The position numbers were made by a program, and so were the translations under genes. Under the pieces are notes generated by a model. That model worked only from the letters and a program-made list of their open reading frames with translations. It ran no database searches and was not told the DNA's origin. 64,000 bases of DNA. It comes from Stratiformator vulcanicus. Lineage in GTDB: Bacteria; Planctomycetota; Planctomycetia; Planctomycetales; Planctomycetaceae. Of this stretch, positions 47,134 to 60,973 are shown in pieces. How positions within the stretch are numbered: position 1 is the first letter of the stretch; every line of letters begins with the position of its first letter. The stretch lies in NCBI RefSeq assembly GCF_007744515.1, contig NZ_CP036268.1:940529-1004528 (forward strand), given 5' to 3'.

Positions 47134-50100
47134 TCAATGAAAGTCACGCGACCGCACCGCAGCGGCGACCGTTTCGGAAAGGTCTTCGAGCCGGTCCACG
47201 ACAACGTGAATGACGTAACCAGTTTTATCTCGCTGTAACTTACCGTGCGCGATCACCGCGGTCGCCGTGCGGGCGATGCGGTGAAATTTCTCCCACACAT
47301 CGGGCCAGACGATCAGATTCGCATGGCCGGTTTCATCTTCAATGGTCATAAAGGTCACCCCCTTCGCGGTTCCCGGTCGCTGCCTGAGCAAGATTAAACC
47401 GGCGACCTTTATCGACTGCCCGTCGTGACGTTCTTGAAGCAGCTCTGCGGTCGTCACTTGCAGGTGATCCATTTCATTTCTTAAAAACTGCAGCGGATGC
47501 CCTTCGAGTGACAACCCCGTCGCCCGGTAGTCGGCGGCAACCCCTGCTTCTTTCGATTCGAAGGGCAATGTCGGCGTCTCCTCCGATTGATCGACGCGAT
47601 CGGTCAGCGGGGCGGCCCGGCGCGACGGCATTGCCTGCCAACGCGCTTCTCTTCGTTTTAACTTTAGTTCTCGAAACGCATCGGCTGCGGCCAACCGGTC
47701 CAAGGCCGACGACGCGAGCCCGGTCCGCCGCGCGAGTTCGTCGAACGATGCGAAATTACTTGCTGTCCGGGCCGCGAGAAGCCGCTCGGCATCGGCTTGC
47801 CTCAAACCGCGGACCATCCGCAGCCCGAGCCTGATTGTCGAGGAGCCCCCTTGTGTTTGAACGCCGTGCCGCGGCGGTTCGAGATTATCGGCCAGCTCAA
47901 GCGTGCAGTCCCACTGTGAGCGATTCACGCAAACGGGTCGGACTTCCACATCGTGCTGCCGCGCATCGCGAATTAATTGGGATGGCGAATAAAACCCCAT
48001 CGGCTGGCTGTTGACCAAAGCGGCGCAAAATGCCGCCGGATAGTAACATTTCAGCCAGCACGAATAATAAACCAGAATCGCAAAACTCGCCGCGTGCGAT
48101 TCGGGGAAGCCGTATTCACCGAACCCGCGAATTTGTTTAAACAGCCGCTCCGCGAATTCGCCGGTGTAACCGTTACGACTCATGCCCTCTTTAAGACGGT
48201 GTTCGAACTCATCAATCTTTCCGGTGCTGCGCCACGCCCCGATCGCGCGGCGGAATTCGTCGGCCTCACCCGGTGAAAATCCCGCCGCCACCTGCGCGAG
48301 CTTCATCGCCTGTTCCTGAAAAATCGGCACACCGAGCGTCCGCTGCAAGACGCCGCGAACTTCATCGCTCGGATAGGTTTCTTCTTCCAAACCATCACGC
48401 CGCCTTAGATAGGGATGTACCATGTCTCCTTGAATCGGCCCCGGTCGCACGATCGCGACTTCAATCACAAGATCATAAAACGTGCGAGGCTTCAGGCGCG
48501 GCAGCATCGCCATTTGCGCCCGACTTTCGATTTGAAAGACTCCCATCGTATCTGCCCGCTGAATCATCTCATAGACGGTGGGGTCCTCCTTAGGAATCTC
48601 ACAAAGGGATTGAGGGCTCATCAAGCCCACGGGCACCGCCCCGTGGGTCCGCGCCGACTTCAATAACTCAAAACACCGCTTCAAAGCCGTCAGCATCCCC
48701 AAGGCAAGGCAATCGACTTTAAGGATTCCTAATGCCTCAAGATCATCTTTCTCCCACTGCACGACGGTGCGATCCTTCATGGAAGCATTCTCGATGACAC
48801 ACAACTCGTCGAGACGCCCGCGGGTCATGACCATCCCGCCGACATGCTGTGACAGGTGTCGCGGGAATCCGAGAATTTGATCCATAAAATAGACAAGCTG
48901 CTTCGCCGTCCGGCTCCCCGGCTGTAAACCCGCTTCAAGAAAGCGGTCATTAATATCGCCCTCCACGCCGTACCGTCCGATATGTCGGGCAAGTGTGTCG
49001 ACCCGGTCGAGGGACAGACCGAGCGCCTTGCCGATGTCGCGAATGGCCGAGCGGGCGCGATAAGTCACTACCGTCGCCGCCAGCCCTGCCCGCTCCCTTC
49101 CGTATTTCTCATAAAGATATTGCAGTACCTCCTCGCGGCGTTCGTGTTCGAAATCAATGTCGATATCGGGAGCCTCATCGCGTTCTTTGCTGATGAATCG
49201 CTCGAACAACAAGTCGTGCTGGTCGGGATCGACCTCCGTCACGCCGAGGCAATAGCAGACTGCCGAGTTAGCTGCCGACCCGCGCCCCTGGCAAAGAATC
49301 TCTTTACTCCGCGCGAACCGTACGATGTCTTGCACGGTTAAAAAATACGCCTCGTATCGGAGCTCACGAATTAGCTTTAATTCGTGATCGAGCAGCCTGC
49401 GCACGCTGCCTGGAATGCCGTGCGGATACCGCCGAGAGGCCCCGACTTCTGTCAGTTCTTTTAAGTAGGAATAAGGCGTGTGCCCCGCGGGGGTTAGTTC
49501 TTCTGGGTATTCATAGCGAAGTTCGTCGAGATTGAAATGACAGCGGTCGGCGATCTCGACGGCTCGCCGTAGCGCATCGGGACGATCTTGATACAGGCGG
49601 TCTAGTTCGTCTCGTGATCGTATATGATGATACCCATTGGGGGGGAGATGCGACGCCAGTTCGGCAACGGGCTTGCCCAGGCGGATCGCCGTTAAGACGC
49701 CGTGCAGATGGCGCCTCTGCTGCTCGTGATAGCGAACATCGTCGCCGGCCGCCAGCGGAAGGCCGGCCTGCTTGGCGAGCGAACTCATCCGCGTCAGGGT
49801 CAATCGGTCTTCCGGTCCGCGGCTCAGTTCGGCGAGCGTATAAAGTCGACTGGAGAAAATGTCTCGATAGGCGGACAGAGATCTTAATGCGTGGTCCGGA
49901 TCGCCGATTAAGGCTGCAAGTGGCACTCCGGCAATCAATCCGGCGGAATATCGCGAGACGTTTTCCAAGGTGAGTCGACATTCCCCTTTCTTCGCCGCCC
50001 TTCGCCCGGTGGTCAGCAATCGACACAGTTGCCCGTACGATTTGCGGTCAGTCGCCCAGACAATCAATGGCGGGGTATCAACCAGATGCAATTCGGTGCC

Positions 50101-50394
50101 GATGATCAGTTTCAGCCCGACCTGCTTTGCCGCGACATGAGCGCGGACGACACCGGCGAGACTATTGCGATCTGTGACCGCCAACGCCTCATATCCTAGT
50201 GCGGCTGCCTGTCCGATTAATTCGTCGGGATGAGATGCGCCCTCCAGGAAGGTAAAATTCGTCAGGCACCGCAGCCCGGTGATGCGAGTGTTTTTTACGG
50301 CGCGGGCTTTTCGCTTCGGTTGCGGCGCAGCATCGATCCGCCCGGCTATTGCGGGGTGAGACTCACGGGCTTTGGGCGGCGGTTCGTCAGGCAT
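47134..50394 (-). CDS. dnaE2: Error-prone DNA polymerase DnaE2
   Basis: A 1086-residue C-family polymerase, the size of DnaE2 rather than DnaE1 (about 1160). The PHP domain starts TGLRCLTNFTFLEGASHPDELI. Catalytic aspartates are in EAPDIDIDFEHERREEV. DnaE2-typical blocks include QGRGSAANSAVCYCLGVTEVDP, FPRHLSQHVGGMVMTRGRL and VPIFQEQAMKLAQVAAGFSPGEADEFRRAIGAWR, and the OB fold near the C-terminus has VAGLILLRQRPGTAKGVTFMTIEDETG. It performs translesion synthesis with ImuA and ImuB, whose genes lie directly upstream on the same strand. ATG at 50394. Confidence 0.95.
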   Translation of the reverse strand: MPDEPPPKARESHPAIAGRIDAAPQPKRKARAVKNTRITGLRCLTNFTFLEGASHPDELIGQAAALGYEALAVTDRNSLAGVVRAHVAAKQVGLKLIIGTELHLVDTPPLIVWATDRKSYGQLCRLLTTGRRAAKKGECRLTLENVSRYSAGLIAGVPLAALIGDPDHALRSLSAYRDIFSSRLYTLAELSRGPEDRLTLTRMSSLAKQAGLPLAAGDDVRYHEQQRRHLHGVLTAIRLGKPVAELASHLPPNGYHHIRSRDELDRLYQDRPDALRRAVEIADRCHFNLDELRYEYPEELTPAGHTPYSYLKELTEVGASRRYPHGIPGSVRRLLDHELKLIRELRYEAYFLTVQDIVRFARSKEILCQGRGSAANSAVCYCLGVTEVDPDQHDLLFERFISKERDEAPDIDIDFEHERREEVLQYLYEKYGRERAGLAATVVTYRARSAIRDIGKALGLSLDRVDTLARHIGRYGVEGDINDRFLEAGLQPGSRTAKQLVYFMDQILGFPRHLSQHVGGMVMTRGRLDELCVIENASMKDRTVVQWEKDDLEALGILKVDCLALGMLTALKRCFELLKSARTHGAVPVGLMSPQSLCEIPKEDPTVYEMIQRADTMGVFQIESRAQMAMLPRLKPRTFYDLVIEVAIVRPGPIQGDMVHPYLRRRDGLEEETYPSDEVRGVLQRTLGVPIFQEQAMKLAQVAAGFSPGEADEFRRAIGAWRSTGKIDEFEHRLKEGMSRNGYTGEFAERLFKQIRGFGEYGFPESHAASFAILVYYSCWLKCYYPAAFCAALVNSQPMGFYSPSQLIRDARQHDVEVRPVCVNRSQWDCTLELADNLEPPRHGVQTQGGSSTIRLGLRMVRGLRQADAERLLAARTASNFASFDELARRTGLASSALDRLAAADAFRELKLKRREARWQAMPSRRAAPLTDRVDQSEETPTLPFESKEAGVAADYRATGLSLEGHPLQFLRNEMDHLQVTTAELLQERHDGQSIKVAGLILLRQRPGTAKGVTFMTIEDETGHANLIVWPDVWEKFHRIARTATAVIAHGKLQRDKTGYVIHVVVDRLEDLSETVAAAVRSRDFH

Positions 50395-50706
50395 TGATTC
50401 TTAAAGAGTTATCGTGCTTTTAATGTATTAGAGCCGGTGTCAATAAGCACTGCGTCCTGAGACGCGGTGGTCGAGCGCGCGATGATGTGATAGAGAGGGA
50501 CGAGGTTCCTCCCCGCGCTCGGTCCGCGGTTCTTTCGAACGCGCGGTTTGTAAATCGAGTACTTTCTGCGATTTTCACTGGGGGTGTTTCCAAGTCGTGT
50601 GAAATATAAGCCCGAGGCGCCAGCCGTCGGGCAATCGCTAGTTGATCGACCATCGACTTGCGGCTCTGGCCGGTATTAATATGCTTCAAGCATGAGCAAG
50701 TTTGCG
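50395..50706. other. Intergenic region between imuB and dnaE2
   Basis: This 312-bp gap lies within the mutagenesis cassette. It holds a short hairpin-forming repeat (50608-50632) and a small palindrome atgcttcaagcat near 50682-50694 by the imuB stop. A 104-residue reverse frame (50420-50734) has no protein-like features. dnaE2 could therefore have its own promoter here; no SOS-box-like sequence was recognised in it. Confidence 0.45.
50608..50632. repeat. REP-like hairpin element
   Basis: cccgaggcgccagccgtcgg and the next g form an 8-bp stem (CCCGA+GGC with GCC+TCGGG, one bulged G) over a GCCA loop, preceded by aag. The sequence resembles short palindromic repeats I recall in planctomycete intergenic regions; copy number cannot be checked here. 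Confidence 0.5.
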
Positions 50707-52290
50707 CTATTCGAAGAGGCCGTGCAGGAACCATTCGCTGCGGGCGTGCTTTAAGTCTTGAAATAGCCAGTACCGCTCTCCCTGAACGGTTTCGACGCGC
50801 CAGTAGTCCCGCCGAATTTCATGACCGGTCCACCAAGCCGACTCAATTCGTTCCGGCCCCCAGCGACGTCGGATGTCGAACGTGCGTCCCCGCCGGATAA
50901 AGCGATAGGGCGGCCCGTCCGGGACAATCGACCACACGCGAATCGCTTCAGGTTCTTTCAGCAGACAGGTCGGTCGCGCGGTAGGGCTAAGGTACTTCGT
51001 TGTGGGCAAAAATGGCCTTAAACGAGGTGATTTCACCGCTGGTTCTTCCTGAAAAGCGCGTTCCGGAATCGGGTGGCCGGTCGAAACCGTGCGAGAGACA
51101 CACAGGTCTCCGAGCCGTCCGCTCAGGCATTCGATGAGGTCGGCGAATTCTCTGTCGCGATCTTGCTCGCCATCGCCGAATAGATCGCTTTGTTTCCGCT
51201 TGAGCGGTTCCCGGACGGTGACTTCGCCTGCAATGCGTTCAATTTCTTCCGGCAGCCGCATCCGTTCGAGTTTCAGCCGCACGAGATTCATGAATCGGTC
51301 GGGATCGACCGTCGGGCGGGCGGTGCCGACGTTAAAAGAGAGTGGTGTTCCCTCCGGCGGAAGGACTTCCCAGCGTACTTCGCGCATGCCGATTCCCGGT
51401 CGCAGGCGTTTCAACAGGCGCTCGGTCAGCTTCTTTAAAATTTGTTCGACGATATGACCGCCTTCAATTGGCACGTCAAATTCCCAGTTCGCTCGTACCG
51501 GTTCGGGGGGTGGCGTGGGATGAACTTGCTCGGCGATGTCGCCCGTTGCCTGATCCAGCCGTTTTAATAACTCGGGACCGAACCGTGACGGCAAAGTCTC
51601 CCGCGGCAGCGTGCGCAGGTCGCGAACGGTCCGGATATCAAATTCTTTTAATTTGTCGACGGAGGTGCTGCGAACTCTTAATGCGGCCAGTGGCAGCGGA
51701 TCGAGATGCCGCAGGGTGTCGGCAGCGGAGACCGCGATCACGTGGCCCGAGGATCGCGTGAACCTCGCTGCGGCCCATGCGACGCCGACCGTTGCCGCGA
51801 TCGCAACGCGGGCCTGGTAGTCGTACTCGGCGAAGAACTGAATGACCGCCTGCCCTAGCGGCCGCTCTCCGCCGAACAAATGAGTGCAGCCGGTGATGTC
51901 TATTAAAAGACTGTCCGGCTCTGCGACATTTTCTTCGACAGGAGGAACTCCCGTCACGGGACTGAACCGCCGACAGGCGAGCGCGAACTGCTCAAGCACT
52001 TCTCGATCTGCCGTCGGATCCGCCGCGGTGAAAATCGCGGCGGGTTGGACACCGGTTAACAGGGCCTGCGCCTCGGCGAGTGGCAACCCGGGTCGCACCC
52101 CATAGCGCCCCGCCGATTGCGAGCAGGCCGTGACCTTCAGCGCGCCACCCCCGGCCGGGGCATGCAGCACGATTGGCGGGTCAGGGCGGCTCTCAGGCCC
52201 GTCGTTCGTTCGCGGCAGTTCGGAACGCTCGCATTGGCGAAATCGCTGGACGGGCCAGTTGGGCAGCCACACGGACAAGATGCGTTTCAT
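50707..52290 (-). CDS. imuB: ImuB, Y-family-polymerase-like mutagenesis protein
   Basis: A 527-residue protein of the DNA polymerase Y family lacking catalytic activity. It begins RILSVWLPNWPVQRFR and has ALKVTACSQSAGRYGVRPGLPLAEAQAL, DSLLIDITGCTHLFGGE, VAIAATVGVAWAAARF, LPLAALRVRSTSVDKLKEFDIRTVRDLRTLP and a C-terminal part ending LKHARSEWFLHGLFE. ImuB bridges DnaE2 to the sliding clamp: QSDLFGDG near residue 388 could be the clamp-binding motif. The ATG at 52290 lies inside the end of imuA, overlapping by 98 bp. It is followed by dnaE2. Confidence 0.93.
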   Translation of the reverse strand: MKRILSVWLPNWPVQRFRQCERSELPRTNDGPESRPDPPIVLHAPAGGGALKVTACSQSAGRYGVRPGLPLAEAQALLTGVQPAAIFTAADPTADREVLEQFALACRRFSPVTGVPPVEENVAEPDSLLIDITGCTHLFGGERPLGQAVIQFFAEYDYQARVAIAATVGVAWAAARFTRSSGHVIAVSAADTLRHLDPLPLAALRVRSTSVDKLKEFDIRTVRDLRTLPRETLPSRFGPELLKRLDQATGDIAEQVHPTPPPEPVRANWEFDVPIEGGHIVEQILKKLTERLLKRLRPGIGMREVRWEVLPPEGTPLSFNVGTARPTVDPDRFMNLVRLKLERMRLPEEIERIAGEVTVREPLKRKQSDLFGDGEQDRDREFADLIECLSGRLGDLCVSRTVSTGHPIPERAFQEEPAVKSPRLRPFLPTTKYLSPTARPTCLLKEPEAIRVWSIVPDGPPYRFIRRGRTFDIRRRWGPERIESAWWTGHEIRRDYWRVETVQGERYWLFQDLKHARSEWFLHGLFE

Positions 52291-52975
52291 CGTTCAACAT
52301 CACTTCGATCCCCTGTTCCCCCTCCCTGCCCGCGGCCGTATCTCGCAAGGGATACAGCGACCGCACCCGCCAGTGCGGGCGTAGCGTCTCCTCATTAATG
52401 TTTTGCCCGGCCATCGTGCGGACTTCCAGCCGCATGTCAGACCAGCAGACATCGCGTCGCGTCGAATCGGGCCGCAGAAAGAATCCGCAACCTCCCCCGA
52501 CCTGAGCCGCCCGTTTAAGCCGCTGCATCGCGGTGTCGGATGTCCGCCCCAGTCGGGCGAGCACCGTTCCCACCGCCCGACAGCGCAGCGCCTGTTCCAG
52601 CGACCACAGTAAATCTTTCTGCGAAGACGGTCGGACGATCAGCAGTCGCGTCGGCTCGATCCCGTAGCCGCATAGTCCCGCCGGAAAGAACCGCTCCTGG
52701 TCCTGTTTCGGTTCGACGAGTACCACTTGAGAAGTCGCTCGCGCTTCGGCCAGCACCGACGACGCACACACCAACGCCAGCCCCGTGGCGGGTCCGACCA
52801 GTTCGACCGTGCCCCCCGGCTGCAATCCACCACCAAGCAGTGTTGCCAGCGGCGCCAGTTGCGGTCCGACCGCCACCGGCTCCTCAGTCCGCTCGCTCAC
52901 GCCCCGTGTTTTGGTGAGTTGTCGCATCTGCTGCCGCAGTGCGCGCACCGTGTCTTCTCGTCTGCACCCCTCCAT
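52193..52975 (-). CDS. imuA: ImuA, RecA/SulA-like mutagenesis protein
   Basis: A 260-residue ImuA-type protein. It has the RecA-like core pattern LATLLGGGLQPGGTVELVGPATGLALVCASSVLAEA (Walker A-like GPATGLAL, degenerate), VVLVEPKQDQERFFPAGLCGYGIEPTRLLIVRP and LLWSLEQALRCRAVGTVLARL, and a C-terminal region that overlaps imuB by 98 bp. ATG at 52975 is chosen because GGGGGAAATG has purine-rich sequence immediately upstream and the longer frame is antisense to an adjacent gene. It is the first gene of the imuA-imuB-dnaE2 cassette. Confidence 0.88.
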   Translation of the reverse strand: MEGCRREDTVRALRQQMRQLTKTRGVSERTEEPVAVGPQLAPLATLLGGGLQPGGTVELVGPATGLALVCASSVLAEARATSQVVLVEPKQDQERFFPAGLCGYGIEPTRLLIVRPSSQKDLLWSLEQALRCRAVGTVLARLGRTSDTAMQRLKRAAQVGGGCGFFLRPDSTRRDVCWSDMRLEVRTMAGQNINEETLRPHWRVRSLYPLRDTAAGREGEQGIEVMLNDETHLVRVAAQLARPAISPMRAFRTAANERRA

Positions 52976-53031
52976 TTCCCCCGCTCCGCTTCGGATTGGG
53001 ACCTCAAACACCCGGGCGACTGTAGCAGTGT

Positions 53032-53043
53032 GAACGCATGTTT
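53032..53043. promoter_or_regulatory. Candidate SOS/LexA box upstream of imuA
   Basis: gaacgcatgttt lies 57-68 bp upstream of the imuA start. It is a near-palindrome matching the Gram-positive-type SOS box GAAC-N4-GTTC except for the last base. The position suits damage-induced control of imuA-imuB-dnaE2. No lexA is in the window, and LexA specificity in this lineage is not known to me, so the call is tentative. Confidence 0.4.
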
Positions 53044-53191
53044 CAATAGGCGTTTGGCAAAGTGGCGAAGATGTTTGAAAATGTCCGGGCGCCGCAGGTC
53101 TGATTTGAACGTCATGCCGAACCCGCATTGACCGCGAAAGGCGACATTTCGGATGCTTCGCCGACTCACACACATTTCGAGGGGCAATCCG

Positions 53192-53451
53192 GTGCAACCG
53201 AACGAACTGCCTGACCGACCACGCCTTGTCGCCGGAACGATCACCGCTTCGCTCAAACCCTCCGACAGTGGTTTCGACGGCCGACGTGGGCGATCTGGAT
53301 CGCCCTGTCCCTGCTGACGAGCGGGATTCCCGCCACCCTCGAAGGCGGCATTCGCAAACTCGGCGGCACCTTCGCGCTGGGCGATTTCTGGAGCCTTCTG
53401 CAAACGACGGCTCCACTGACGCTCTCGCTCGCCCTCCTGACGCTGGGTTGG
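53192..53451 (+). other. Likely 5' part of membrane protein, broken by frameshift
   Basis: GTG at 53192 has GAGGGG eight bases upstream and opens VQPNELPDRPRLVAGTIT... but stops at about 53312 in that frame. From 53215 on, the next frame is continuously open into the CDS at 53452 and encodes clear membrane helices (TWAIWIALSLLTSGIP and WSLLQTTAPLTLSLALLTLGW), yet contains no ATG, GTG or TTG before 53452. The parts fit one protein if one base were missing near 53215-53290. Confidence 0.5.
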
Positions 53452-53829: not shown

Positions 53830-54285
53830 TTGACCCCCCCCACGATTATCGTTGTCCACCCGAAAGAGCGTCGTAGTAAGTGCAGTGTGGAGCCGCTGCG
53901 GGGGCGGGAGGGGTTTGTATTCTGGAAATACCCCGGTCGCGGCGTCGAATCGTTGGACCGGTACGTGCGTTTGGGATTCGGGGGGCCGGAGATTGGGCCT
54001 GCCGACGCGGAAGCCGGGCTGCTCTTAATTGACGGCAGTTGGCGTCACGCCGAGGCGATGGAGCAAGATTACGGCGACGTACCGGTGCGGAGCCTGCCCC
54101 GCTGGGAGACCGCCTATCCGCGGGTCTCGAAGATGAACAGCGATCCGATGGGCGGGCTCGCGACGATCGAGGCCCTCTATGCAGCGCATTATCACATGGG
54201 ACGCGACACGCAGGGATTGCTCGACGAGTATTATTGGCGCGACGAATTTTTAAATCTCAATCGCGAGCGGCTCGCCAGCAATTAA
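53830..54285 (+). CDS. Tsr3/DUF367-like rRNA aminocarboxypropyltransferase homologue
   Basis: A 151-residue protein starting at TTG 53830, the only start codon after an in-frame TGA. The pattern matches the Tsr3/DUF367 family: an N-terminal [19 protein letters not shown] (family D-x-K-x-C-S-x-x-x-L), [14 protein letters not shown] (family V-D-C-S-W), [32 protein letters not shown] (family NPVNYG...L.C.EALAAALY) and [15 protein letters not shown] (family LL..F.WG..F...N). Tsr3 proteins transfer 3-amino-3-carboxypropyl from SAM to small-subunit rRNA in eukaryotes and archaea. Distant DTW-family proteins share some motifs, so tRNA modification is an alternative. It overlaps the convergent small secreted protein by four bases. 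Confidence 0.65.
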
Positions 54286-54698
54286 TGCTTTTCAGTTTCG
54301 CCGCCGTGAAGTTCGGGGAAGGCGCGGACCTTGTGGTCGGCTTCGTATACTCCGTAGCCGTTCTGCAGTCTGCGGCCGTGCAGCCAACCGAGCGACACGC
54401 GTGAGTACCATGGGTCGTAGTCGACGCCGAAGGTGCCTTCATTGCGGTACCGGCAGCCGTTGCCTTTAGAATCACCGCCGCCGACATAGTAGCCGCTGTA
54501 TTTCTCGTCGTAGGTGCAGTCGGCCCACGGGAAGAGCCGGTTGGGATAGCCGGTATTGCGGAGGCGACAAAGTGGGCCGGTCGAGTGATGCACGATCGGC
54601 AGGCTGAGTGCGAATCGTTCAAACTTCCCGGCGTCGGCCGAACCGGAGAATAACCCGCAGATCGCGAGAGACAACACGGCGAATCGCGTCTTAATCAT
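54282..54698 (-). CDS. Small secreted protein, unknown function
   Basis: A 138-residue protein with a signal peptide ([24 protein letters not shown]). The mature part is Gly/Tyr/Trp/Cys-rich: [71 protein letters not shown]. The three cysteines and the aromatic pattern suggest a compact extracytoplasmic domain. No family is recognised with confidence. ATG at 54698; the longer frame lacks protein-like features. It is codirectional with the matrixin-like gene, whose stop is at 54884, 185 bp upstream. Confidence 0.72.
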
Positions 54699-54883
54699 GG
54701 TCTCATCCGTGGCACACGGGTTCCGGCCCCAATTCCATCTACGCCCGGCGGCGCTGAGCCTTGAATCGTATCGAACGTGCCATCGACCTGTGATCAGTGC
54801 CGCTACGGCCCGGATGAAAAACCTCGCTGAATTTATCGAATCGACCGTTAAGGTTGACCAAATCGAACTCGCCACGTCATCGA

Positions 54884-57655
54884 TCAGCCGAACGGATTGC
54901 GAAGAAATTTGACATAGGGCAGGCGGACGCCGCGGACGAACGTCTGATCGGCGAAGAGGACCTGCTGACCGTCCGGCAGGAAGTTTCGCGCGCCGAGGAA
55001 CGTGACCACATCGTCCTGGTCGACGCCGTCACCGCTGATCCCGTATCCGCCGATCAAATTATTTCCGTTCTCATAGAGCGGGGTGCTGCCGGGGAAGAAG
55101 ACGATGCCGTTCTGGTTCGCCTTATTTGTCGTGCCGACGGCCGGAACGCTGCCGGCGACGACGCCGGGGTCACCGGGGTCGCGGAAGTTCGTTTGCGGAT
55201 TAAAGGCATCGAATCCGAGCACGCTCGTAAAGGTTGAAGCGGCCGCCGGGGCACCGAGATTTTCCCCGGTTCGCGGGTTGATACTCGGATTGTTCATGAT
55301 CGAAAACGGCCCGGCCGGCGTTCCATCAATCCCGTCCGGGAATCGTGGTTCCGAGACGAAGCGGAATGTCCGGTTGGTGAAGGCGGTCCCCGCCGGGACA
55401 CCATTAATTTGATCGATCGGCTGCAATGCATTCGGGTCGGCGTAATACGAAGTGTTTCGCGCCTTCGCGACGGCGACGTCGATCGAGAAGACGGTCGCAT
55501 CTTTCATTCGGAACAGACCGAGCACTTCGCCGGAGGTGTCGGTCACGGCGATGACCATACGCGTTCGCACGCCGGGTGAGGCGTCTCCGGCGTCGAGTCG
55601 AACGGCTGCGCGAACATTTTTGGCCGCTTCGACCGCGTCAAAGATTAATTGGTTGACACGTTCGGCGGTTAATTCGGGGTCGACCGTGGAGGCGTGCGGA
55701 GTGACGAGCATGCCTTCGGGCACGACCAAGCCCGCCTGAGCAAGATCGCCGCCTGCGTTAATTTGCTGATCGGCGCCACTGGCGGCACCGGCTCTGATAT
55801 TCTGCTGCGCGAAGTCGCGGAGTTGAAGCAGGCCTTTCGTACCGGCAACCGGCCCGATCACCTGCAACTGAATTCCGACGAGATCAAGACGGCCGAACGG
55901 AACGTCGAGAGTTGGTACCGGGTGATTGGTGGGCTTGAATCCACCGACCTCGTTGTTGGCGAGGTTACTTCCCCCGGCGGCCATCACCGCAATAAATTCG
56001 GCCTCAAGAACTCGAGACGCGTTTGTCCGCTGTGTTTCAGTCTGTCCGATGCCCGGGATGAAGCCCTGCTCGTGGGTCGCGAAGCCATCGGGACCGGGGA
56101 AGAAGACCCCGATGCCGCCGATTAATGTCTCGCCGATGCCGTCGCCATTGGAATCACGGTAAAGCGGAACTCCGCCGGGCAGTGTCGCAATTCCGCGAGA
56201 TTGCCAGTCGCTGGGATCGGTCGCTCCGGCAGTGATACCCGCCTGCGTTCCGTATGACTCCGGTGCGAACAGGGTCTGGCCCGCGGGAACGAAGGTGGGG
56301 TCGATATTAAATCGGCCTCGGAGGGTGAAGTCGTCCGCCGTCCCCTTAATGCCGTCGTCGCCGGGATGGAATATGCTGTCGCGGTTGGTGTGCTCAATTC
56401 CGAACAGGTCGACCGGCGGGGTGTTAGCAACTTCAGGCGGAAAGTGGGCGCCGAGGCCGATCGGTGCGACGAAACCGGGGCCTCGGACCGTCGAGTTCGG
56501 ATCGGTGATGTTCGGATTGGATTCGACTTCGCGCTCGGTCACGGTCGACTGGCTGACAAATCGCACGAGTCGCGAGGTCAGGGGAGCGAGCGTGCCGTTC
56601 GGGGAGTAGGCATCAGTATTGTTCGGATCACCGTTGGAGAAGAACGCGGCGGTACGGGCTTTCGCGACGGCTCCGTCGATCGCGAACACAAGCCCCGCCG
56701 GGTCTCCCGCGAAGTTGTCAAGGACTTCCTGTTCGACTCTCACGCCCAAGATTCGCCCGTTGCGATCGACGATCGCGATAATCGCATCATTAGTGTCGGA
56801 GACCTGCGATGCGAAGTCGAGCGTCTGCGTGACTTCGTTGGCCGAGAGTTGCTGGGCGGCGATATCGACGAGTGGTGAGACGGGAAGCCCGTTGGCCCCG
56901 CCTTCGGTCAGTGGCAGGAACATCGCCTGCTGAAGCGCCCGATCGATCGCCTGAGTCGAACTCTCGCCGTCATAGGTGCCGCCCATGATCTCGTCGGTCA
57001 CATGTTGCAGCGTATCGGCGAGACCGAGCACGTGGCCCGCTTCGTGTGCCGCGACGGTGAAGAAGTCGACGGTGCCGGCCGGGTCTCCGTTGCCGATCGT
57101 GTTATCCCAATTCTCAGATCGGTCGAGCCAGATGATCCCTTGGATTTCCGGCTGGCCGGAGGACGTATTAAGAACTGAGCCTCCGAGGCCGAGCGTGCCG
57201 CCCTGTGCGGTTTCGTGACCGAGCGAATCGAGCGAGCCCACGCCGACGTTGACGATCTGAGATGCGTCGGCGTTCGTGTCCCTTAAGAACTGAACGCGAC
57301 CGCCGGTTGCCCGCTGCCATTCGGCGAAGACCTGCTCAGCCAGTGCCATTTGACGAGCGGTGATTTCGTTGGCTTCGCCATTGAGACCGCGAAAGTCGTA
57401 ACGAATTGTGATCGGCTGTTCGGAGTTGTGCCACAGGTCGGCAATGCTGCCTGGCGCCGTTTTCGACGAAGCGCCGGTGCCGTCGAATGATCCGACCGCG
57501 GCTTGCTCATCTATTTCGCTGCCCCCGTCGAAGCCGCCGACGGGCATGACCATGCCGAGGTACCGGCGGTCTTCGAGTCGCTCGACCGGTTGACCGGAGG
57601 CCCGCTCGCTACGGCGCTGCTTCTTGGCCTCAGCGTTGTGTGTTCTGCCGAACAT
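54884..57655 (-). CDS. Secreted matrixin-like metalloprotease with two split HbpS/GlcG domains
   Basis: A 923-residue protein; ATG at 57655 (a TTG precedes it). The N-terminus has the planctomycete extracellular pattern ERLEDRRYLG. Residues about 75-240 are a metzincin domain: ITIRYDFRGLNG, FAEWQRATGGRVQF, and the zinc site HEAGHVLGLAD (about 204-214), i.e. HExxHxxGxxD, with a methionine downstream in DEIMGGTYD. Two modules of HbpS/GlcG type follow, each split by a long insert: module 1 (about 260-560) has AIIAIVDRNGRILGVRVE, AVAKARTAAFFSN, GGVPLYRD and IGGIGVFFPG; module 2 (about 675-905) has MVIAVTDTSGEVLGLFRMK, AVAKARNTSYYAD, STPLYENGNNLIGGYGISGDGVDQDD. HbpS-like proteins bind haem. Divergent from the barrel and cytochrome genes. 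Confidence 0.82.
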   Translation of the reverse strand: MFGRTHNAEAKKQRRSERASGQPVERLEDRRYLGMVMPVGGFDGGSEIDEQAAVGSFDGTGASSKTAPGSIADLWHNSEQPITIRYDFRGLNGEANEITARQMALAEQVFAEWQRATGGRVQFLRDTNADASQIVNVGVGSLDSLGHETAQGGTLGLGGSVLNTSSGQPEIQGIIWLDRSENWDNTIGNGDPAGTVDFFTVAAHEAGHVLGLADTLQHVTDEIMGGTYDGESSTQAIDRALQQAMFLPLTEGGANGLPVSPLVDIAAQQLSANEVTQTLDFASQVSDTNDAIIAIVDRNGRILGVRVEQEVLDNFAGDPAGLVFAIDGAVAKARTAAFFSNGDPNNTDAYSPNGTLAPLTSRLVRFVSQSTVTEREVESNPNITDPNSTVRGPGFVAPIGLGAHFPPEVANTPPVDLFGIEHTNRDSIFHPGDDGIKGTADDFTLRGRFNIDPTFVPAGQTLFAPESYGTQAGITAGATDPSDWQSRGIATLPGGVPLYRDSNGDGIGETLIGGIGVFFPGPDGFATHEQGFIPGIGQTETQRTNASRVLEAEFIAVMAAGGSNLANNEVGGFKPTNHPVPTLDVPFGRLDLVGIQLQVIGPVAGTKGLLQLRDFAQQNIRAGAASGADQQINAGGDLAQAGLVVPEGMLVTPHASTVDPELTAERVNQLIFDAVEAAKNVRAAVRLDAGDASPGVRTRMVIAVTDTSGEVLGLFRMKDATVFSIDVAVAKARNTSYYADPNALQPIDQINGVPAGTAFTNRTFRFVSEPRFPDGIDGTPAGPFSIMNNPSINPRTGENLGAPAAASTFTSVLGFDAFNPQTNFRDPGDPGVVAGSVPAVGTTNKANQNGIVFFPGSTPLYENGNNLIGGYGISGDGVDQDDVVTFLGARNFLPDGQQVLFADQTFVRGVRLPYVKFLRNPFG

Positions 57656-58126
57656 CAACCGGCTCCGTTTATCTTCGTGGCAATCGTAAGTTCGCGGCGA
57701 GAGTGATCCTCAACTCATCGCTCCGGCTGCATTGAGGCAACGGGCGCAGTTCGAGTTGTGGGACCCTGAGAATCGTTTCGGTCGACAGACGCTTCCGATC
57801 GCATCAAATTTCGGCCGGAATCGTCGATTTGATCAAAAAAGTCGGAATAACCGGAAATTTCGGCACAACCGTCAAATTTCCCCCAACTTGTCATCACTTC
57901 GCAGCCGAAACAGTAGCAGGGGAACATCCGATCCGACTTCCGGTACCCCTACTCGAGGGGGCATCCCCGATGACTCTTCGCTAGTCGATTCGGGTACTGC
58001 CGGGGACGGCTCTCAACAAACGACATTGCACAATACCGCTGTTCGCAGACTCACCCGCGTTCCGCACCGCATTCCGTAGATAACTCAAATTTTGTCGCGA
58101 CGTTCACTAAGAGCGAGTCCGATCAG
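57656..58126. promoter_or_regulatory. Long divergent intergenic region, probable regulatory space
   Basis: This 471-bp space lies between the matrixin-like gene and the barrel gene, so it carries both promoters. A more AT-rich stretch at about 57801-57885 contains aaatttc three times (57806, 57855 and 57874, the first two followed by gg), with ccggaa also repeated. A 115-residue forward frame (57732-58079) has no protein-like pattern and was not called. No -35/-10 pair was assigned. Confidence 0.4.
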
Positions 58127-60973
58127 ATGAATGACGCTCATCAAATCGCAACGCGGAACGGCGCGAACGGACGCACGGAAAGATTCCGTTCGAACCGAAG
58201 GCCGCATCCGCCGTCATTCGTGGAAACCTCCCGGTCGATTCGTGATGAACGCGCATTTAACGGCAAGAGGTCCGGCCGGAATCTTTGGGCGATCTACGCC
58301 TTGGCCGCGCTGATTTTCCCCTCGATCGCAATCGGCGGCGATCAATTTCTGATTCCTGACGACACATGGGCGAGTCTGCCTGAGTCGACTCAGTCGGTTA
58401 AGGCAGTGAAGTCAGAAGTAACGACTTCAGAAGTGTCGATCTCAAAGAACGAGGAAGTCCGCCCGGACCGCACGTCGACCGCTGACAAGATCAGCGGCCC
58501 GCCTCGAAGTTTCAGTCGTCACCGAGAAACTAACGCGGCTCTTCCGGCCCCTGAGACCCCGGCCGTGTCGTTCGATGTCATGAAGCTCTTGGACTCCGAG
58601 TCTGCAAACGTCCGACGAACGGCGGTCCGGAGTTTGAAGCAGTTTACGCCGACCCCGGCCTTGATGCGTCGAGTCGAAGAACTCTCAGACAATGATCCCG
58701 ACGCCATCACGCGCGGGACAGCTCGCCTGCTTCTATCGGACTGGGAAGACCGGCTCGAGTCGACGACCGCTTCCTCGGATGCTGAATCGATCTCATTTGA
58801 ATTCGGCGGTCGATCACGTCGGGCAAATCCGTTCGCTGATCCGATTCGCTCTCGAACGGACACCGCTGTTTCAAATGCGAGTGCATCAGCGGCGAGAGCG
58901 CGAGCGAGTCACCAATTCATGAACCAACCAACCGATGACGCCGGGCGATCGGGTGCGGCGGTGTTACGGCTTGGTGATTCAGGACGACCGGCTGCGGAAC
59001 ACATCCGCAGCGGCGTTTCGCAGACGGCTTACAGCGGCATCGTGCCACCGGCCCCGCGCCGGATCGATGCTCCCGAATACGATCCGACGGCAGACTCCGA
59101 CGACTTCGAAGCAATCTTCGATCTATCACCGGCATCGACGGTCCCCGCCGGGCGTCCAAGGTTATTAGCGGAAGACATCTTTCCGCCGGTGCTTGACACA
59201 CCGTTGAATCCGCCCCCTATACAGGACGACGTGTTGCCGTCGTCTATCCTTGATCGGCCCATTCGTTCGATTCCGTTCTTCCCGACGCTCGGCTTTGCCG
59301 GGCCGACCGGCGTACAACCGACCGAGCCGCAAACGAGCAGCCACTTCCAACCGGTCGAGGATCGCTGGCGGCATGGTTTTCCGGAGTGGAATCGGTACGC
59401 CGAAGAACCTGACACGGTGACACGTTACCCGTACACCGAAGGTCGGTGGTGGGATCCTTACAATCAAAACGTGCTCAAGGGTGACTACCCGATCATTGGC
59501 CAGCACACGTTTTTCAACGTGGAAGCCGAACTGCTGATGATCAACGAGTATCGGGAACTGCCGACGCCGACGACCCCTTTCGAGAGCACCGTTGATGCAG
59601 GTCAGTTCCAGTTCTTCGGCGACCCGACCCAGTTCCTGACGACGAACTTTCTGTTCCTGCGGACCGAATTGTTCCACGGCAACGCCGGGTTCAAACCGAT
59701 CGACTGGATGGTCCGGCTTACTCCGGCGGTCAATCTCAACTATCTCGACGTCAACGAACTCGCGGTCGTCGGTCCGGACGTTCGCGACGGAACGACGCGT
59801 TATGACGACATCATTACGCTGCAGGAATACTTCGTCGAAGCAAAGCTCGCGGACCTCAGCCCGCACTACGACTTCATGTCAATGCGGATCGGCAGTCAGC
59901 CCTTCCAAAGCGACTTCCGGGGGTTCATTTTTAACGATATCAACCAGGGCGTGCGGCTGTTCGGAACTCGCAACGCAAACCGAGATCAGTTTAACATCGT
60001 GTTCTTCGACCAATTGGAGAAGAACACAAACGCGCAGTTGCTCAATGAATTCTCTCGTCGCGACCAGCAGGTCTTTGTCGCGAATTATTACCGTCAGGAC
60101 TTTGTCTATCCCGGCTATACGGCTAACACCAGTATTCACGTCAACAATGACGGGCCGAGCACGCAATTCGATGACAATGGCTTTCTCGTCCGGCCCGATC
60201 CGACCGGTATCTTTAAAGAACACCGGGTGACGACGGCCTACCTCGGCTTCACCGGCGACGGCCACATGGGTAAGTACAACGTCTCGAACGCGTTCTACTA
60301 CGTGTTCGGTGAGGATTCCTGCAATCCTATCGCGGGTACCGAGCAGGAGATTCGCGCCTATATGATGGCATTGGAACTGTCTTACGACCGCGATTGGGTC
60401 CGGTTCCGCGGGTCGTTCTTCCACTCTTCCGGTGACGGCAATGCGGATAACTCCACCGCGACCGGCTTCGATTCGATCCTCGATCAACCGCAGTTTGCCG
60501 GGGGCGAGTTCAGCTATTGGCAGCGGCAGGAGATTCGCCTTTTCGGAGCCGCGTTGAGCCAGCGGGAGAGTCTTTCCCCGACGCTTCGCTCCAGCAAGAT
60601 TCAGGGGCAGGCGAATCACGTGAACCCCGGTATCTTCATCTTCAACGCCGGCATGGACTTCGAAATTACGCCGAAGCTCCGGATGATCACAAACGCCAGC
60701 TACTTGATGTTCGACAAGACGGACGTGCTCGAAACCTACACGTTCCAAGACGATATCGCCCGCGAGATCGGTGTTGACCTGAGCATTGGTATCGAATATC
60801 GACCGCTCCTGAGTGACAACATTATCATCGAAGCGGGCTGGGCGTCTCTCGTTCCCGGGAACGGAATGAAAGACCTGTTCGGAAAGTATGATCCATTCAC
60901 ACTTGAGAACAGTTCCGATCCGGAACTCGATCTGCTTTCGATGGCCTTCGTGACAGGCATTTTCGTCTACTGA
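58127..60973 (+). CDS. Outer-membrane beta-barrel-like protein with HEAT-like N-domain
   Basis: A 948-residue exported protein. The signal helix is at residues 52-70 (NLWAIYALAALIFPSIAIGG), after a long basic N-region. Residues about 148-212 form HEAT-like helices (VMKLLDSESANVRRTAVRSLKQF). A Pro/Ser-rich linker follows. From about 430 to the end, alternating amphipathic strands with aromatic ends (GQHTFFNVEAELLMINEY, WMVRLTPAVNLNYLDVNELAVV, LSYDRDWVRFRGSFFHSSGD, LRMITNASYLMFDKTD) and the final phenylalanine-like IFVY terminus suggest a barrel of 14 or more strands. 116 bp later lies the multihaem cytochrome gene, so it may be the porin of an electron conduit. Family name not certain. Confidence 0.72.
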   Translation: MNDAHQIATRNGANGRTERFRSNRRPHPPSFVETSRSIRDERAFNGKRSGRNLWAIYALAALIFPSIAIGGDQFLIPDDTWASLPESTQSVKAVKSEVTTSEVSISKNEEVRPDRTSTADKISGPPRSFSRHRETNAALPAPETPAVSFDVMKLLDSESANVRRTAVRSLKQFTPTPALMRRVEELSDNDPDAITRGTARLLLSDWEDRLESTTASSDAESISFEFGGRSRRANPFADPIRSRTDTAVSNASASAARARASHQFMNQPTDDAGRSGAAVLRLGDSGRPAAEHIRSGVSQTAYSGIVPPAPRRIDAPEYDPTADSDDFEAIFDLSPASTVPAGRPRLLAEDIFPPVLDTPLNPPPIQDDVLPSSILDRPIRSIPFFPTLGFAGPTGVQPTEPQTSSHFQPVEDRWRHGFPEWNRYAEEPDTVTRYPYTEGRWWDPYNQNVLKGDYPIIGQHTFFNVEAELLMINEYRELPTPTTPFESTVDAGQFQFFGDPTQFLTTNFLFLRTELFHGNAGFKPIDWMVRLTPAVNLNYLDVNELAVVGPDVRDGTTRYDDIITLQEYFVEAKLADLSPHYDFMSMRIGSQPFQSDFRGFIFNDINQGVRLFGTRNANRDQFNIVFFDQLEKNTNAQLLNEFSRRDQQVFVANYYRQDFVYPGYTANTSIHVNNDGPSTQFDDNGFLVRPDPTGIFKEHRVTTAYLGFTGDGHMGKYNVSNAFYYVFGEDSCNPIAGTEQEIRAYMMALELSYDRDWVRFRGSFFHSSGDGNADNSTATGFDSILDQPQFAGGEFSYWQRQEIRLFGAALSQRESLSPTLRSSKIQGQANHVNPGIFIFNAGMDFEITPKLRMITNASYLMFDKTDVLETYTFQDDIAREIGVDLSIGIEYRPLLSDNIIIEAGWASLVPGNGMKDLFGKYDPFTLENSSDPELDLLSMAFVTGIFVY

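Follow-up and report, generated by a model that had tools for sequence, protein, structure and literature searches.

What does a planctomycete do with a protein that joins a zinc protease to two copies of a haem-binding-type domain, and why is its gene found beside those of a membrane barrel and a multihaem cytochrome? The locus lies in a 64-kb window (the whole stretch analyzed, 64,000 nucleotides of contig NZ_CP036268.1), part of the single-contig 5.23-Mb genome of Stratiformator vulcanicus. The focal open reading frame (ORF) ends at 54884 on the minus strand and starts with TTG at 57658 or with ATG at 57655, the start chosen in an earlier reading made from the DNA alone, hereafter the sequence-only reading. 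The encoded protein consists of an M10-type protease followed by a doubled HbpS-like domain, here called the module. We suggest, as the answer that is on balance probable, that the gene product is the outer part, itself no cytochrome, of an electron-transfer apparatus in the planctomycete outer membrane. The joint inheritance of a predicted barrel, a ten-haem propeller cytochrome, and an inner-membrane-type electron source is best accounted for by a single electron-transfer system.

The module gene is inherited together with the genes of the predicted barrel and of a cytochrome with an LVIVD propeller, and often lies next to them. It is likewise co-inherited with a second ten-haem cytochrome, the gene of which is located in S. 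vulcanicus ∼276 kb from the window beside genes for NuoEF-like, iron–sulfur/cyclic nucleotide (FeS/cNMP), and 4-haem proteins. Across 297 genomes of the class, S. vulcanicus included, the module and the barrel are each present in 102 and the LVIVD cytochrome in 101 (E ≤ 1e-30), and the second ten-haem cytochrome is present in 104 (E ≤ 1e-20), with all four genes in 93 genomes and any of them in 108. The phi coefficients relative to the module are 0.925 for the barrel, 0.918 for the LVIVD cytochrome, and 0.941 for the second ten-haem cytochrome, and the module spans seven families within the class. A control gene from the same window (50707-52290), searched as one protein where the four system genes were searched as profiles, is found in 116 genomes and has a phi of −0.143 to the module. 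This argues against lineage alone as the cause of co-occurrence, in a comparison that does not model shared ancestry. A first set of 59 genomes, S. vulcanicus included, was searched with the whole protein (E ≤ 0.001). Strong module matches and barrel matches are in the same 21 of these genomes, and the 21 plus one further genome have the cytochrome. The link to multihaem cytochromes drawn in the sequence-only reading is therefore borne out, with a phi of 0.92 between module and ten-haem LVIVD cytochrome and a locus shared in many genomes.

The sample for gene order consists of 81 module loci, namely the window and 80 relatives from named genomes, which are the best 80 of 526 confirmed loci and have planctomycete titles, except for a few titled only "bacterium". 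Among the 62 loci with at least 2.5 kb upstream, a divergent barrel gene adjoins the module in 44 and is present anywhere in the locus in 48. The cytochrome is next after the barrel and on the same strand in 27 of 37 pairs with room beyond the barrel. The focal gene had been described as divergent from a multihaem cytochrome; the orientation stands, but the two are not direct neighbors, as the barrel gene is between them. Two regions from outside the class (L146 and L149) have the same divergent order as the window. Some loci are adjoined by genes for 4-, 5-, and 10-haem cytochromes and for NuoEF-like and FeS/cNMP proteins, and a membrane protein of one relative matches a ferric reductase below cut-off.

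The barrel protein is predicted to have a HEAT-like helical part (residues 145–215, below cut-off), a low-confidence region (216–457), and 18 long strands (461–947). Its nearest structure is AlgE (5d5d; Z 26.5, 3.0 Å over 358 residues; model mean predicted local distance difference test [pLDDT] of 60.7), and an integral outer-membrane barrel, as expected of an electron conduit, is thereby present by prediction. The alginate export family PF13372 matches 4 of 36 barrel relatives and not the window protein, for which an NCBIfam scan gave nothing useful. A conduit is also expected to have a multihaem cytochrome encoded with the barrel, and one is found here. The LVIVD cytochrome has nine CxxCH motifs and one CX4CH motif; the tenth site, C-x(2 or 4)-CH, is kept in all 27 aligned cytochromes, and we therefore count ten haem sites. 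No relative of solved structure was found for it at E ≤ 0.001. All 27 scanned LVIVD cytochromes, that of S. vulcanicus included, match the Geobacter ExtM model (E ≤ 1e-4; best 1.7e-23), and the cytochrome also matches models named after selenite or tellurite reduction. Several LVIVD-cytochrome matches contain one stop within the match (TAA, TAG, or TGA), which may mark a broken copy or the end of a frame.

Known conduits are assemblies of an outer-membrane protein with a multihaem cytochrome in the periplasm and a redox protein on the outer side (PMC6148476). Within Geobacter, extABCD has a member with 18 transmembrane segments and extHIJKL has a rhodanese in place of an outer cytochrome, so that the latter shares a non-cytochrome outer part with the apparatus proposed here (PMC6148476). 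The Geobacter Ext and Shewanella Mtr systems also share with it an outer-membrane protein gene that adjoins a multihaem cytochrome gene, and the ExtM matches are distant. The planctomycete set is set apart from Ext and Mtr by its HbpS-like outer component, LVIVD propeller, and divergent gene order, and by scores that do not reach the ExtM cut-off. The alginate exporter AlgE and OprD-type porins share the predicted barrel, but not the N-terminal helical and low-complexity extension or the cytochrome linkage. Verrucomicrobial porin–multihaem cytochrome clusters are alike in belonging to Planctomycetes–Verrucomicrobia–Chlamydiae (PVC) bacteria and in having a barrel gene beside multihaem genes, and differ, when compared by description only, in having a periplasmic cytochrome with 8 haems and 20 or more transmembrane motifs (PMC5615132).

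In the proposed apparatus, electrons would pass, outward or inward, between NAD(P)H-linked inner-membrane proteins, periplasmic cytochromes, the barrel with its LVIVD cytochrome, and the outside. NuoEF-like proteins would fit NADH oxidation or a reverse flow to NAD+, and the LVIVD cytochrome could be the outer-surface redox part of the conduit. The module would be at the outer face, where it may bind or sense a small redox substrate, iron, or haem, and the M10 domain would have been added in particular lineages, where it may trim proteins of the cell surface or release substrate. A broader claim, which we make tentatively and consider less than probable, is that an undescribed respiratory chain, ending in the doubled HbpS protein outside the cell, is present in about a third of sampled Planctomycetia. 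Such a chain would include NuoEF-like and FeS/cNMP proteins, a ferric-reductase-like membrane protein (in one relative), a membrane-anchored ten-haem cytochrome, 4- and 5-haem cytochromes, and the AlgE-like barrel with the ten-haem LVIVD cytochrome. The doubled, expanded HbpS protein would handle or sense substrate at the end of this chain, and in some lineages it would have gained a protease, RTX, or dockerin module.

Several observations weigh against an electron-transfer role. The module has no haem motif, and an electron path through it is therefore not evident. The window cytochrome scores 55.9 bits with the ExtM model (NF040943), relative to a cut-off of 800. The barrel, in a model that is weak overall, is most like substrate channels of the AlgE and OprD type, and such channels do not conduct electrons. 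The set is incomplete in 15 of the 108 genomes with any of the genes (nine of the 15 are under 90% complete), the barrel does not adjoin the module in 18 of 62 loci, and in eight regions from outside the class, chosen for a module relative, the barrel is present in two and the cytochrome in three. Lastly, the counts and phi values ignore shared ancestry, as no tree of gains and losses underlies them, and hypergeometric values computed for the co-occurrence are for this reason not probabilities.

The likeness of the barrel to substrate channels keeps alive a reading in which barrel and module handle a small molecule, such as an aldehyde, an oxyanion, or a metal complex. The module would bind or sense this molecule in the manner of EfgA, and the cytochromes would oxidize or reduce substrate at the surface or in the periplasm, with no electrons delivered to solids; the matches of the cytochrome to selenite and tellurite models also fit. 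In EfgA, the formaldehyde sensor of Methylorubrum (6bws; PF03928/DUF336), K57, S114, D121, and possibly R42 are proposed for formaldehyde binding (PMC8153426). The putative equivalents, mapped by a constant offset of 20 in the profile alignment, are nearly invariant in domain 2 across 80 distinct module sequences (K732 in 80, S875 in 79, D882 in 80, and R717 in 80). Domain 2 is thus like EfgA in predicted fold, in the three proposed pocket residues, and in the possible fourth, and appears to keep an almost invariant small-ligand pocket. On the other side, domain 1 carries other residues at the pocket positions, and no dedicated enzyme is seen in the loci listed, though no search was aimed at one. 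EfgA also differs in being a single-domain, cytoplasmic tetramer (PMC8153426), whereas the S. vulcanicus protein has two domains with long inserts and is probably exported. We regard the small-molecule reading as rather unlikely.

The fold itself is best seen in copy 2. The HbpS-like family PF03928 matches the focal ORF above cut-off (E 3.6e-11; 43.6 bits, cut-off 25), with the signal from split domain 2, and the two stretches recovered in a genome search (residues 679–735 and 837–885) are the two halves of this copy. In the AlphaFold2 model (44 sequences; mean pLDDT 84.6), copy 2 and EfgA superpose with 134 of 136 residues matched at 1.5 Å (Z 14.1) and 30% identity between the structurally aligned sequences. 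Copy 2 therefore keeps its fold despite the insert, and the concern raised in the sequence-only reading that inserts might destroy the fold is removed for this copy. Domain 1 has no Pfam match in the focal protein, and the listing of PDB structures obtained from the model included domain 2 and not domain 1, which is uninformative about the latter. With inserts removed, the two copies align to each other in hhalign (98.7%, E 1.5e-16, 35% identity over 99 columns), and in the model they have an identical order of elements, with inserts of ∼150 and ∼110 residues after the same helix. Domain 1 would thus belong to the HbpS-like fold only through its likeness to domain 2 and its predicted topology. 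Two copies, each interrupted by about 100–150 residues, had been proposed from the DNA alone, and both points agree with the profile and model results.

The inserts are modeled mostly with good confidence and have little secondary structure; a 16-residue stretch is alike between them (hhalign 44.9%). They had been described as rich in D-x-N-x-D; the idea of such calcium-like inserts is rejected. Residues 268–924 have one D.[ND].D motif, at residue 502 in the hairpin that follows insert 1, relative to a shuffle mean of 0.44, which is chance level. One D/ExxE iron motif of the HbpS type is present in the module, at residue 674.

Relatives of the module are known to bind haem. A reading akin to the role suggested from the DNA alone, in releasing or binding haem or cytochromes outside the cell, makes the protein a factor for haem acquisition or cytochrome processing, with a protease that would cut extracellular haem proteins and HbpS domains that would take up the haem. 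A profile search of the PDB recovers EfgA, the PduO C-terminal domain (PduO-C), and 2a2l. HbpS of Streptomyces reticuli is extracellular, binds haem and iron, and oxidizes Fe(II) (PMC3754957), PduO-C binds haem (PMC4923194), and a cytochrome gene is nearby. HbpS has a haem site at Thr113; the haem ligand of PduO-C is His18 (PMC4923194). Its equivalent, A679 in S. vulcanicus, is His in none of the 80 module sequences, which have A, S, Q, or T; haem binding may still occur, since HbpS itself has Thr at this position and still binds haem weakly (PMC4923194). None of the His residues in the module is invariant across the 80 sequences. The best, H405 (72 of 80), and H423 (69 of 80) are both in insert 1, and the focal protein has no Cys, so haem binding by a conserved His or Cys is rejected. 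The module thus shares family PF03928 with HbpS and PduO-C and differs in being tandem and insert-bearing and in not keeping His18. Haem or a small molecule may nevertheless be bound by it. The protease is absent from 69 of 97 module ORFs, and with the ligand position never His, we consider the haem-acquisition reading very unlikely.

Relatives of the protein place the module, and not the protease, at its center. In the first set, 24 of the 59 genomes have matches, and many of the main matches span only from residue ∼250–270 to the C-terminus. In an alignment of 21 such proteins, the module is conserved and the N-terminus is variable. Across all loci compared, an M10 domain is fused to 28 of 97 module ORFs, a total that includes some contigs twice and some ORFs cut by contig ends. 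The 28, counted with an M10 profile built from ten of them, represent 23 distinct motif stretches, and 18 are within the 80 named loci. The core that relatives conserve is thus the doubled HbpS module, and the protease is an optional extra. The candidate role of the protease as functional core is rejected on this count, and with it the idea that a haem-releasing protease is the point of the protein. In a phylum-wide sample, 15 of 324 genomes have matches (E ≤ 1e-30), of which three, from the same class, are full length and twelve, from outside it, each span only part of the module, mostly the copy-2 half. The simplest history, judged from sequence comparison, would be that an insert-bearing single domain was duplicated within the class and that some lineages gained the protease.

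Where present, the protease is of matrixin type. PF00413 matches the focal ORF above cut-off (E 2.9e-9; 37.4 bits, cut-off 24), and the predicted structure superposes on MMP-13 (3kej; Z 14.5, 3.0 Å over 154 residues), consistent with a matrixin fold. The matches to PF00413 and PF03928, both above cut-off, uphold the proposed fusion of an M10-type protease with HbpS-like sequence, which is not due to chance because the first 21 full or near-full relatives are 44–60% identical by BLAST and 28 of 97 module ORFs carry an M10 domain. In matrixins, the third zinc ligand is His (HExxHxxGxxH); here, as had been noticed, it is Asp (HEAGHVLGLAD), and HExxHxxGxxD is present in all 28 M10-bearing module ORFs. 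Snapalysins (M7) share HExxHxxGxxD, but their models remain below cut-off on the focal ORF (PF02031, 19.6 bits relative to 25; NF033628, 22.6 relative to 300).

The protein is probably secreted or exported, judging by its N-terminus. This reads PVERLEDRRYLG and resembles planctomycete N-termini of what we take to be the LExR-xL type. A Pfam scan of the focal protein gave no match to PF07595, and two relatives match this family below its cut-off. All of ten scanned relatives without an M10 match have PF03928; two of them carry RTX repeats, and one carries a dockerin.

Such variable N-termini, with RTX repeats and a dockerin among them, would also suit a sensor of stress or an adhesin of the cell surface that shares its regulation with respiration but does not belong to the apparatus, and HbpS serves the sensor kinase SenS as sensory partner (PMC3754957). 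The co-occurrence of the module with three other genes is against this, and we hold a sensor or adhesin of this kind to be quite unlikely. An electron-transfer role for the module would have wider consequences. Searches for electron conduits have been advised to consider non-cytochrome outer parts (PMC6148476), and the module is a precise and widespread candidate for one. We found no description of the fusion or of the gene set in the literature, judged from titles and abstract openings, and the proposed electron-transfer system of the class, in about a third of sampled genomes, seems to be undescribed. Carriers among named strains include Rhodopirellula, Limnoglobus, Roseiconus, and Singulisphaera, and others are metagenomes. 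The poorly understood DUF336 fold becomes tied to a defined redox gene set and, if the proposal is true, many planctomycetes have an unrecognized route of electron exchange with their surroundings.

Table. Coordinates of the focal protein, its parts, and associated genes (window positions unless another contig or locus is named).
Feature	Position	Strand	Basis or remark
Focal ORF, 924 aa: M10-type protease and two split HbpS-like domains	54884..57658	−	Pfam and structure model
LExR-xL-type N-terminal stretch, residues 23–36, putative export motif	57551..57592	−	Sequence; putative function
M10/matrixin-type zinc protease domain, residues about 70–249	56912..57451	−	PF00413; MMP-13 superposition
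Zinc motif HEAGHVLGLAD, residues 205–215	57014..57046	−	Asp at third-His place
HbpS-like domain 1, residues about 268–535	56054..56857	−	hhalign to domain 2; topology
Insert 1, residues about 341–490 (∼150)	56189..56638	−	Structure model
HbpS-like domain 2, residues 660–895	54974..55681	−	PF03928; EfgA superposition
Putative pocket residues R717, K732 (EfgA R42, K57)	55463..55510	−	80/80 each; mapped by offset
Insert 2, residues about 741–850 (∼110)	55109..55438	−	Structure model
Putative pocket residues S875, D882 (EfgA S114, D121)	55013..55036	−	79/80 and 80/80; mapped by offset
Small conserved protein downstream of module gene	54282..54875	−	Cluster in 44 loci, module's strand
Outer-membrane barrel protein, AlgE-like	58127..60973	+	Divergent from module; predicted structure
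Ten-haem cytochrome with LVIVD propeller, 1402 aa	61090..64000	+	Runs past window; whole gene L034:1618-5826
Second electron-gene group, L141	C1 710000-729900		NuoEF-like, FeS/cNMP, ten- and 4-haem cytochromes, small membrane-type protein

The small protein encoded downstream of the module gene is on the module's strand in 44 of 44 loci, within 0.4 kb or overlapping in 43 and at 4.5 kb in one (L089). It has no Pfam match at E ≤ 1, and the motifs YVGGG and EGTxGxDY are present in it. Elsewhere in the window, ORFs at 47134-53416 on the minus strand resemble an error-prone polymerase cassette, presumably ImuB/DnaE2; the control gene, with PF00817, is one of these and is taken to be IMS/ImuB-like.
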